This document shows positions 28,609-32,041 of a stretch of DNA of 64,000 nucleotides, piece after piece. Below the pieces are notes generated by a model that saw nothing but the letters and a program-made list of their open reading frames with translations, had not been told where the DNA came from and made no database searches. The number at the start of each line of letters is the position of its first letter. The first letter of the stretch is position 1. Both the position numbers and the translations under genes were made by a program. This DNA comes from Dehalococcoidia bacterium (lineage in GTDB: Bacteria; Chloroflexota; Dehalococcoidia; Tepidiformales; Tepidiformaceae), in NCBI GenBank assembly GCA_020432045.1, contig JAGQHB010000078.1, forward strand, positions 1-64,000. The letters run 5' to 3'.

Positions 28609-29460
28609 GTGGCAATGCTTATCGGCGCCCAAATCTCCAGTGCAGGTGGCCTGTACAAAGTCTTCGAGCGCGCAGCGGAAATCGGTGCGGAAGCGATCCA
28701 GGTCTTCCTCTCGGCTCCGCAGCAGTGGAAACCGCCAACATTCAACGACGAACAGGTTGCCGCTTTCCGGAGCGCGCATGCAGCCTCGTCGCTGCCCGTC
28801 TTCGTACACGGGAGCTACCTGATGAACTTCGGGAGTAAGGACGAGGCACTGCTCAACCGGTCCGTCGCATCGCTGCGAAGCGGACTGCGCTGGGCAGGCG
28901 AGCTGGGCATGGTGGGGACGGTCTTTCACGTCGGAAGCCATCTTGGAGCCGGCTTCGAAGCGGTGCTCCCGAACGTCTGCGCGCGAATCCGCGAGGCGAT
29001 GGAGGCCAGCCCCAACGAGAGCCGGGTGCTGCTGGAGACGAACGCAGGCCAGGGAAATTGCATCGGCCGGACCTTCGCCGAGTTGGGCGCGATCATCCGG
29101 GGACTCGACGGCGATCCGCGTGTCGGCGTCTGCTTCGATACGTGCCACGTTTTTGCAATGGGCTACGACATCGCCAACCGCGAAGGCTGCGAGCAAACGA
29201 TGGAGGAGTTCGAGCGGGAGATCGGCGTGGACCGCCTGGTGGCCGTCCACGCGAACGACAGCAAGATGCCATTGGGCGGTGTCCGAGACCGCCACGAGAA
29301 CATTGGCGAGGGCGAGATTGGGCTCGACGGCTTCCGGACCATCATGCAGCACGCGGCATTCCGGGACGTGCCGTTCCTCCTGGAGGTTCCCGGTTTCGAG
29401 GGCAACGGCCCGGATGCAGAGAACGTCGCCCGCCTCAAGGCGATCAGGGACTCGCTTTAA
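28609..29460 (+). CDS. nfo: Deoxyribonuclease IV (AP endonuclease, Nfo family)
   Basis: A 283-residue TIM-barrel endonuclease IV. It opens LIGAQISSAGGLY and carries the metal-binding blocks VFHVGSHLGAGFE, ETNAGQGN, CFDTCHVFAMGYDI, HANDSKMPLGGVRDRHENIGEGEIG and a final LEVPG. It cuts 5' of abasic sites in base-excision repair. Start may be GTG at 28609, which has GAGGAG at good spacing, or ATG six bases later. The length is normal. Confidence 0.93.
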   Translation: MAMLIGAQISSAGGLYKVFERAAEIGAEAIQVFLSAPQQWKPPTFNDEQVAAFRSAHAASSLPVFVHGSYLMNFGSKDEALLNRSVASLRSGLRWAGELGMVGTVFHVGSHLGAGFEAVLPNVCARIREAMEASPNESRVLLETNAGQGNCIGRTFAELGAIIRGLDGDPRVGVCFDTCHVFAMGYDIANREGCEQTMEEFEREIGVDRLVAVHANDSKMPLGGVRDRHENIGEGEIGLDGFRTIMQHAAFRDVPFLLEVPGFEGNGPDAENVARLKAIRDSL

Positions 29461-29522: not shown

Positions 29523-29843
29523 ATGATGTCTGACGCGGATACTCTCACTGGCAAACTCTCCGGCCCTCTCTTCACCGAATGCGCCGAATGGATCTGGGAA
29601 CAGATCCAGGAAGACGGGCACTTCGTGCAGGGCGAACTGATCGAGCTAATCCTGGTCACGGAGCGGATGCTCGGCGTTCAGGCGCTCGAGCGCACCGGCG
29701 CCGTCGAATCCGTGATGTCCCGGTTTGGCGAGATGGGGATCGGCGGCGACCCATCACCGATCACGCCCGATGTGGTCGACATGGTGCTCATGTGGGAAGA
29801 CGATTTCCTTGGTTTCGCGGGCATCTCGCGACCTGAAAGCTAA
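29523..29843 (+). CDS. Conserved-looking acidic hypothetical protein, 106 aa
   Basis: A 106-residue protein opening MMSDADTLTGKLSGPLF. It is acidic and helix-rich (FTECAEWIWEQIQEDGHFVQGELIELILVTERMLG), with a second block ITPDVVDMVLMWEDDFLGFAGI. I recognise no domain; the pattern ELI-LIL-TERMLG suggests a small all-alpha protein. It lies between nfo and the glmS leader, 62 bp after nfo. No frameshift or odd features. It is likely real because no larger gene competes and codon pattern looks normal. Confidence 0.65.
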   Translation: MMSDADTLTGKLSGPLFTECAEWIWEQIQEDGHFVQGELIELILVTERMLGVQALERTGAVESVMSRFGEMGIGGDPSPITPDVVDMVLMWEDDFLGFAGISRPES

Positions 29844-29886: not shown

Positions 29887-29948
29887 GCAGCGGTCAGGGG
29901 GTGCATCCCAGCGAAGCAGCTTACCGAATCTACGGAGTGGACCAACGA

Positions 29949-30107
29949 AGCGCCTGACCCGCGAATGCGGGTGACGAGGTGGGGGCAGAATCGAACCTTC
30001 GGCGGGTGGCCCCCCGGCCGGCACGGTCGACAGGGCATCTGAAAAACGGGCACGGCAACGGCCCGACAAAGCAGGAGCCCACGTGCGAGGGGAACCGCAA
30101 CCCCCTC
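29949..30107 (+). ncRNA. glmS ribozyme (GlcN6P-activated self-cleaving leader of glmS)
   Basis: The 347-bp leader of glmS contains the glmS ribozyme core in order. Cleavage is expected between A29949 and G29950 in AAGCGCC. The P1 hairpin ACCCGC-GAAT-GCGGGT (29957-29972) follows. Then comes GACGAGG, next GGGGGC (29981-29986) pairing with GCCCCC (30009-30014) around AATCGA and TCGGCGGGTGG, and a P4-like CGGGC/GCCCG helix (30047-30065) flanked by GAAAAAC and ACAAAGCAGG. A final hairpin GAGGGG/CCCCTC ends near 30107. In characterised examples glucosamine-6-phosphate is a cofactor for cleavage and lowers glmS expression. The glmS gene is 83 bp downstream. Confidence 0.9.
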
Positions 30108-30190
30108 TCTCCACTCAATCAGCAGCAATCGACACGAACTTGACCGGACCTTCGCTATCCGGAGAACACGCTGCGTGCGGGGAGTTACGA

Positions 30191-32041
30191 ATGTGCGGAA
30201 TTGTTGGATACGTGGGCCCAAGAGACGCGGCCCCGATCCTGATCCAGGGGCTCCGGGACCTCGAATACCGTGGATATGACTCAGCCGGGATCGCCGTCAT
30301 GCCCAATACCGGCGACGAGATCGCAATCCGGAAGCGAGAGGGCAAGATCGCGAACCTCGAAGCGGCGGTCCGCGGTGGTGTACCGCTGCAGGGAGGCACT
30401 GGCATCGGCCACACCCGGTGGGCGACGCACGGCCGCCCCAGCGACACAAACGCCCATCCGCACCACAGCTGTGGGGGCGACGTTGTGGTCATCCACAACG
30501 GCATCGTGGAGAACTATGCCGAACTAAAAGCCGAGTTGAAGGCGGCTGGTCACACCTTTGCAAGTGAGACCGACACAGAAACCATTGCGCACCTCGTCGA
30601 GCAGCAAGTCACCGAGGGCCTCACGTTATCCGAAGCGCTGCGTCATACCACGGCGCGGCTGCGCGGGTCACACGCCATCCTCGCGCTGAACCGAAAGGAA
30701 CCGGGGGTGATCGCCGGCGCGCGCATCGGCAATGCCGGAGGCATCGTTGTCGGCTTTGGAGAGGGCGAAAGCTTCCTTGCCAGCGACCTGGCAGCGGTCA
30801 TCGCGCACACACGGGATGTCGCATTCCTCCGGGACGGCGAGTTCGTGACGGTCACGGCCAGCGGTGTCGACTGTTTTGACCAGGATGGGCGGACGATCAC
30901 CCCGGAACGGCGAGTGGTGCCTCTCGACCCCGTGAGTGCGCTCAAGGGCCAGTACCGCCACTTCATGCTGAAGGAGATCATGGAACAGCCGGTCGCGCTT
31001 TCGGACACGATTGGGTCACTCATCGTGGTCGACCCGCCGGAGTTGCAGCTGATGGCGCTTGGCGCGGCCGCCGCACGCCTGAAGGACACGAAACGGGTCG
31101 TCCTCCTAGGCATGGGAACATCGCTCCACGCTGCGATGATCGGCCGCCGCTATTTCGAACTCTTCGCGGGCATCCCGGCGGAGGTAGATAACGCCAGCGA
31201 GTTCCGCTATCGGGAGCCGGTGCTCGATGCCGAGACGCTCGTCGTGACCGTCAGCCAGTCGGGCGAGACGGTGGACGTTCTGGAAGCGATGGCCATTGCG
31301 CGAGAGGCGGGATCCGCTCAGGTCACCATTTGCAACGTGGAGGGCGCACAGACCACGCGCGTGGCCGACGGTGCCGTCTATACCCGTGCAGGGATGGAGC
31401 GAGGCGTCGCCAGTACGAAGACGCTGCTTACTTCCATCGTCGCGCTGTATTGCCTGGCGCTGGCGACGGGCAAGGCCAGGGGACACATTTCGCCACAAGA
31501 TCTTGCGGGACGAATCCGGGACCTCGTAATTCTCCCGGAGGCAGTTGCATCGGTCCTGGCGGACGCGGACGTGTATGAGCAGATGGCGCCGGCGCTGGCG
31601 CGGTTCAACGATTTCCTCTTTCTTGGTCGAGGGCTGGCCTACCCGGTGGCGATGGAAGGAGCACTCAAGCTCAAGGAGATCAGCTACATCCATGCAGAGG
31701 GGTACGCCGCCGGCGAGATGAAACACGGACCCATTGCGCTCATCGACCGCGAATTCCCGACGGTCGCGATCGCGACGCGCCACGCGCTGCGTTCCAAGAT
31801 GGTTTCGAACATCGAACAGGTGCAGGCCCGTGGCGGCGAAGTGCTCGCGATTGTGACGGAAGGGGATACGGAAATCCCCGGCCTCGTACGCTATACAGTA
31901 TCGATTCCGGACGTGCCGGAGTTACTCGAACCGATCGTGGCGACCGTCCCACTGCAGTGCCTTTCCTACCAAATTGCCCTGCAGCGAGGTTGCGACGTCG
32001 ACCAGCCCCGGAACCTCGCCAAGACGGTGACGGTAGAATGA
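30191..32041 (+). CDS. glmS: Glutamine-fructose-6-phosphate aminotransferase (isomerizing)
   Basis: A 616-residue GlmS. The N-terminal Cys nucleophile follows the initiator (MCGIVGYVG), with GIGHTRWATHGRPSDTNAHPH as the glutaminase signature and two SIS sugar-isomerase domains (SQSGETVDVLEA near residue 356 and the VAMEGALKLKEISYIHAEGYAAGEMKHGP block), ending DQPRNLAKTVTVE. It makes glucosamine-6-phosphate, the entry to peptidoglycan and lipid sugars. The ATG at 30191 has GGGGAG upstream. Expression is expected to be controlled by the ribozyme immediately upstream. Confidence 0.95.
   Translation: MCGIVGYVGPRDAAPILIQGLRDLEYRGYDSAGIAVMPNTGDEIAIRKREGKIANLEAAVRGGVPLQGGTGIGHTRWATHGRPSDTNAHPHHSCGGDVVVIHNGIVENYAELKAELKAAGHTFASETDTETIAHLVEQQVTEGLTLSEALRHTTARLRGSHAILALNRKEPGVIAGARIGNAGGIVVGFGEGESFLASDLAAVIAHTRDVAFLRDGEFVTVTASGVDCFDQDGRTITPERRVVPLDPVSALKGQYRHFMLKEIMEQPVALSDTIGSLIVVDPPELQLMALGAAAARLKDTKRVVLLGMGTSLHAAMIGRRYFELFAGIPAEVDNASEFRYREPVLDAETLVVTVSQSGETVDVLEAMAIAREAGSAQVTICNVEGAQTTRVADGAVYTRAGMERGVASTKTLLTSIVALYCLALATGKARGHISPQDLAGRIRDLVILPEAVASVLADADVYEQMAPALARFNDFLFLGRGLAYPVAMEGALKLKEISYIHAEGYAAGEMKHGPIALIDREFPTVAIATRHALRSKMVSNIEQVQARGGEVLAIVTEGDTEIPGLVRYTVSIPDVPELLEPIVATVPLQCLSYQIALQRGCDVDQPRNLAKTVTVE

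Follow-up and report, generated by a model that had tools for sequence, protein, structure and literature searches.

A complete glmS ribozyme ahead of glmS in a Chloroflexota bacterium close to Tepidiforma, with related RNAs ahead of glmS and glnA in the phylum

Known glmS ribozymes and the element in the window

In Bacillus subtilis, the cleaved product of the glmS ribozyme is degraded by RNase J, and McCown and co-workers (2011) reportedly enlarged the class and pointed out variants from Deinococcus-Thermus. In characterised members, GlcN6P, the product of GlmS, serves as the cofactor for cleavage between A(-1) and G1, after which the mRNA decays (PMC11477304). The cleavage chemistry and the roles of the core have been described (PMC7125110, PMC11602151, PMC11477304), with A(-1)G1 as the cleavage dinucleotide, a P2.2 helix that contains the C2-G56 pair and a bulged nucleotide 6 (PMC7125110), and P2.1 strands and core nucleotides with an active-site role (PMC7125110, PMC11602151). 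Two surveys of glmS riboswitches both include Chloroflexi (PMC2258182, PMC3766115), and no statement was found in the accessible parts of the literature on whether glmS ribozymes of Chloroflexota were already known.

The window, that is, the whole 64,000-nucleotide stretch of DNA analysed here, contains one element of this class. When the whole window was compared with Rfam by cmscan, its forward strand matched RF00234 (glmS ribozyme) with 71.9 bits and an E-value of 1.5e-14 (gathering score, 37 bits), the alignment spanning model positions 1-167 of 167; with the local stretch scanned by itself, the E-value was 2.1e-16. This was the sole Rfam match within the window and the single RF00234 match in a whole-genome scan, and both positive controls, B. 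subtilis and Deinobacterium chartae, were detected with RF00234. A chance match is ruled out by the E-value, the gene context and the covariation described below. Almost certainly, the 5' leader of glmS contains a complete glmS ribozyme, the GlcN6P-dependent cleavage in this reading being carried over from the characterised family, and the element is a canonical, intact-looking member of an already known class.

A first-pass annotation, made from the letters of the sequence, had named a glmS ribozyme here and proposed an Infernal search with the Rfam glmS model. The covariance model, the covariation and the gene context bear the identification out, and the search result is significant. All elements that it listed are found on the forward strand, namely AAGCGCC, the P1 hairpin, GACGAGG, GGGGGC/GCCCCC, AATCGA, TCGGCGGGTGG and ACAAAGCAGG, the last of them in the internal loop of P4. 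The end that it set, at 30107, takes in a terminal hairpin that falls outside the Rfam model.

The glmS gene downstream is the only full copy in the genome and the sole match to TIGR01135 over the cut-off, and 102 nt separate the ribozyme from its ATG at 30191. No sigma-70-type promoter was recognised upstream of the ribozyme by a simple promoter scan. Between nfo and the ribozyme there is a 106-aa ORF (29523-29843), which has no NCBIfam match.

In comparison to the RF00234 types of Bacillus subtilis, Bacillus anthracis and Thermoanaerobacter tengcongensis, the window element shares the cleavage-site context, a predicted P2/P2.1/P2.2 double pseudoknot, the P3/P3.1 pseudoknot, a P4 domain that has the conserved internal loop and a GNRA cap, and the position ahead of glmS. 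It differs from them in that its helices are rich in G+C, the P4 hairpin contains a one-nucleotide bulge, the outer part of P4 has one mismatch, and a hairpin is added after P3.1.

Anatomy, covariation and proposed mode of action

In the window element, each helix of the known fold can be traced: P1, P2, P2.1, P2.2, P3, P4, the GNRA-capped P4 hairpin and the P3.1 pseudoknot (Table 1). Within P2.2, U6 (29955) is unpaired and G7 (29956) pairs with C30000. P2 encloses the core strands AUCGA and UUCGGCGG, which, together with the cleavage site (AGCGCC) and GACGAGG, are present in the window and in its relatives. Rfam draws a UCGA/UCGG pairing inside P2, which was not adopted because in the solved structures these strands belong to P2.1 and P2.2 (PMC7125110, PMC11602151). 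The outer helix of P4 (30033-30041 with 30072-30080) has one A.A mismatch and leads to the conserved internal loop, followed by the P4 hairpin (30047-30054 with 30059-30065) and its GCAA cap (30055-30058); a GNRA cap with a pyrimidine at the second position is typical (PMC2258182). The pseudoknot-free minimum-energy fold includes P1, P2, P3, P4 and the P4 hairpin. However, the folding energy of the window RNA is unexceptional (z = -1.42) and was set aside as uninformative by itself, so the case for the fold depends on the covariance model together with the covariation.

For the covariation, 42 Chloroflexota glmS ribozymes were aligned without structure (alignment A1), and 32 named pairs were counted, the pairs of P2.1 and P2.2 being left out. 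Paired cells amounted to 92.3%, compared with 77.3% in shuffles, two-sided changes occurred at 25 of the 32 pairs (16.2 in shuffles) and in 214 cells (73.5 in shuffles), and none of 500 shuffles was as high on any of these three measures. Sliding the partner by 1-3 columns lowered pairing to 34-46%. With both controls, P1, P2, P3 and P4 are kept through compensatory changes. Only four pairs of P3 were counted, since the MAFFT alignment splits the fifth at L3. The P3.1 pseudoknot is 100% paired, with two-sided changes at three of its four pairs. When L3 and tail segments were swapped among 68 sequences, the mean longest match was 4.63 for a sequence's own segments and 4.27 for swapped ones, the highest of 500 swaps reaching 4.60; a simple rule was used to cut out the L3 segments, and a few of the cuts are wrong, which acts against this result. 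The inner pairs of P4 are variable and weakly supported, two of them being unpaired in 16 and 32 of the 42 sequences. The complementarity of P2.1 and P2.2 is intact; their bases are near-invariant in A1 (positions 2-5 and 7 are invariant in all 42) and so lie outside the reach of covariation, while shifted-bulge variants in relatives agree with P2.2. G29976, the counterpart of the catalytic G, is a G in 41 of 42.

Table 1. Coordinates of the features discussed (window positions unless a locus, L, is named; A1, alignment of Chloroflexota glmS ribozymes)
Feature	Position	Strand	Evidence or remark
nfo (deoxyribonuclease IV)	28609-29460		upstream of ribozyme
glmS ribozyme	29938-30089	+	RF00234 over whole model
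Predicted self-cleavage site, A(-1)/G(1)	29949-29950	+	RF00234 alignment position; G1 invariant (42/42)
P2.2 5' strand, C2 G3 C4 C5	29951-29954	+	complementarity to 30001-30004
P1 hairpin	29957-29972 (29957-29962 with 29967-29972)	+	99.2% of cells paired; two-sided changes at 4/6 pairs
GACGAGG core	29973-29979	+	6/7 positions invariant in A1
P2.1	CGA 29975-29977 with TCG (UCG) 29991-29993	+	strands per PMC7125110, PMC11602151
P2	29981-30014 (GGGGGC 29981-29986 with GCCCCC 30009-30014)	+	99.6% of cells paired; two-sided changes at 6/6 pairs
P3 hairpin	30015-30029 (30015-30019 with 30025-30029)	+	100% of cells paired over 4 counted pairs; in minimum-energy fold
L3 loop GCAC	30021-30024	+	P3.1 pseudoknot with GUGC 30083-30086
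P4 domain	30033-30080	+	sequence, fold, pair counts
P3.1 3' strand GUGC	30083-30086	+	pair counts
Extra 6-bp hairpin GAGGGG/CCCCUC, directly after P3.1	30087-30107	+	outside Rfam model; lineage feature
Likely ribosome-binding site GGGGAG	30179-30184	+	read from sequence
glmS, glutamine--fructose-6-phosphate transaminase, 616 aa	30191-32041	+	TIGR01135 735.5 bits, cut-off 418
glnA-linked RNA	L148 889-1108	+	
glnA-linked RNA	L151 1005-1208	+	
glnA-linked RNA	L152 1030-1247	+	
glnA-linked RNA	L154 395-602	+	
glnA-linked RNA	L155 2662-2879	-	
Further glnA-linked loci	L157, L158, L159, L162, L166, L167, L168, L172, L173, L176, L181		
A5/A53 loci	L120, L121, L122, L126, L129, L131, L133, L135, L137, L138, L139, L053		

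By analogy with the characterised family, we infer GlcN6P-dependent cleavage in this organism. GlcN6P made by GlmS would bind a preformed pocket as catalytic cofactor, and self-cleavage would fall between 29949 and 29950. The mRNA beyond this site would then be degraded, probably by a 5'-end-sensitive RNase, the RNase J that the genome encodes (TIGR00649, 604 bits; cut-off, 400), and GlmS production would fall as a form of product feedback.

Three other readings were weighed against this one. The element might be a decayed glmS ribozyme, related in sequence with cleavage lost, as could be argued from the single P4 mismatch and from a score that is mid-range for Chloroflexota copies (71.9 bits, compared with up to 107). 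This is very unlikely, considering that the nucleotides of P2.1, P2.2, the cleavage site and the pocket are intact, that pairing is kept in P3.1 and P4, and that the element is retained in 23 of the 25 sampled genomes of the window's family.

The extra hairpin bears on a second reading. At this site, all 22 of the family-group members tested have a stem that is 5 bp or longer, compared with about 25% of single shuffled segments that reach 5 bp, and many related families of the same class likewise have a stem after P3.1. The hairpin is a lineage addition, which perhaps stacks on P3.1. Its constancy in the family would suit a switch that senses GlcN6P but acts mainly by a different route, for example through translational control by this hairpin or by the leader, cleavage being of lesser weight. 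Such a route has an even slimmer chance than decay: the hairpin lies about 70 nt from the ribosome-binding site, no terminator-like site was found in a simple terminator scan, and the complete catalytic core is conserved. Least credible of all is the use of a different amine cofactor by the ribozyme in this organism, which is compatible with the sequence taken by itself but is opposed by pocket and cleavage-site nucleotides that match the family consensus and by a downstream gene that is glmS itself.

Distribution of glmS ribozymes in Chloroflexota

In a search of named genomes, the closest GlmS proteins were 63-67% identical and came from metagenome-assembled genomes named Tepidiforma, Dehalococcoidia, Chloroflexi and Chloroflexota, plus two labelled 'bacterium'. 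As Tepidiforma is placed in Chloroflexota, the organism, judged by these protein similarities, is a Chloroflexota bacterium close to Tepidiforma, in line with the probable Chloroflexota genome proposed at first reading. The window would add an example of glmS under regulation from a lineage near Tepidiforma that has been little studied.

Across wider samples, RF00234 was found in 37 of 294 genomes of the window's class and in 125 of 400 Chloroflexota genomes, covering 75 of 225 genera (about one third). The core signature, with a glmS start 22-385 nt downstream, was present in all 68 oriented loci, which are best matches and not a random sample. Other Chloroflexota ribozymes (L002-L036, L111-L139) share the architecture of the window element, with glmS downstream in 68 of 68, and named relatives (L031-L037, L039, L041, L042, L053) also bear the element ahead of glmS. 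Of 80 loci retrieved on the basis of GlmS similarity, only those from Chloroflexota or from unlabelled close relatives had the element.

Chloroflexota is therefore a regular home of glmS ribozymes and not an isolated outpost. The extension of the phylogenetic range of the class that was suggested for this leader is modest, because about a third of the sampled genera carry RF00234, and is one of documentation. What it adds is a record of glmS ribozymes as regular in this phylum, with their helices documented there by covariation.

Departures from the canonical form ahead of glmS and glnA

Several features found elsewhere in the phylum are absent from the window element. In 12 of 68 glmS-linked ribozymes, the C-G pair of positions 5 and 53 is replaced by two A residues, always changed together (Table 1), which would fit a U6-A53 pair with nucleotide 5 bulged. 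Long P2 inserts occur in other Chloroflexota (L131, L135, L139). At the glmS-linked copy in L128 (1501-1650, minus strand), GACAAGG replaces GACGAGG, which alters the counterpart of the catalytic G; this copy could be inactive, or the change could be an assembly error.

The Chloroflexota family f119, unlike the window, also has copies ahead of glnA. At least one RF00234 match was detected in 112 of 147 f119 genomes, and some of them have two; in five two-match genomes, one copy lies ahead of glmS and the other ahead of the gene for type I glutamine synthetase (glnA). Two of these glnA genes were tested and scored 552 and 539 bits with TIGR00653 (cut-off, 429). Among the loci read, glnA-linked copies were found in 16 f119 genomes, the gene link being made by the N-terminal GlnA motif.

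The glnA-linked core reads AGCG[G/A]CUG / UCAGCGG, and the core types split by gene. Ahead of glmS, positions 4-5-6/53 are CCN/G or CAU (rarely CAA)/A, apart from 3 of 79 rows that fit neither type and look like parsing errors; ahead of glnA they are RCU/A in 15 of 16, and the one exception most likely stems from misparsing an AGCGGA that lies upstream in L148. With A53, pairing would be kept if U6-A53 forms and the bulge moves, either to position 5 (the A type ahead of glmS) or to position 4 (the glnA type, with C5-G54). According to a mutational map of the T. tengcongensis core, activity is restored by bulge shifts of this sort (PMC7125110). Chloroflexota would hold natural ribozymes with the P2.2 bulge at position 6, 5 or 4, shifts of the same kind as the activity-restoring ones in that map, with one type ahead of glnA.

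For 15 aligned glnA-type RNAs, 14 of them with the GlnA motif seen downstream, a 54-pair consensus was obtained in which, in uncontrolled counts, 94.9% of cells are paired and 32 pairs have two-sided changes. This well-supported consensus comprises P1, P2 with two added hairpins, P3, a GNRA-capped P4, and a helix that links sequence upstream of the cleavage site to the post-P3 sequence. An exact-pattern search for the glnA-type core, of a kind that overlooks variants, matched 12 of 346 genomes of the taxonomic class of genome G470, the element itself being found only in the four f119 genomes among them. Six matches in family f140 were rejected because they read as a single conserved stretch that resembles coding sequence (secA-like by eye), and the remaining two seem to be chance matches.

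Glutamine synthetase makes the amino donor of GlmS. On balance, the glmS ribozyme fold has probably been taken up by a second gene of the pathway in Chloroflexota, in the form of an f119 variant ahead of glnA with its P2.2 bulge moved from position 6 to 4 and its pairing otherwise kept; this would be a self-cleaving switch that ties glutamine supply to the level of amino sugars, or else a switch whose ligand has changed. No report joining the glmS ribozyme to glnA regulation was found in the titles and abstracts of the literature. The glnA-linked RNAs are more novel than the window element, which is their ordinary relative, and they merit separate study as a test case for a self-cleaving riboswitch moved to a second gene or changed in ligand.

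The glmS-linked copies of f119 (L149, L150, L153, L154 2480-2648, L156) keep P1-P3 and the core, and the P4 domain and P3.1 are apparently absent. Their post-P3 sequence can pair with a stretch upstream of the cleavage site.
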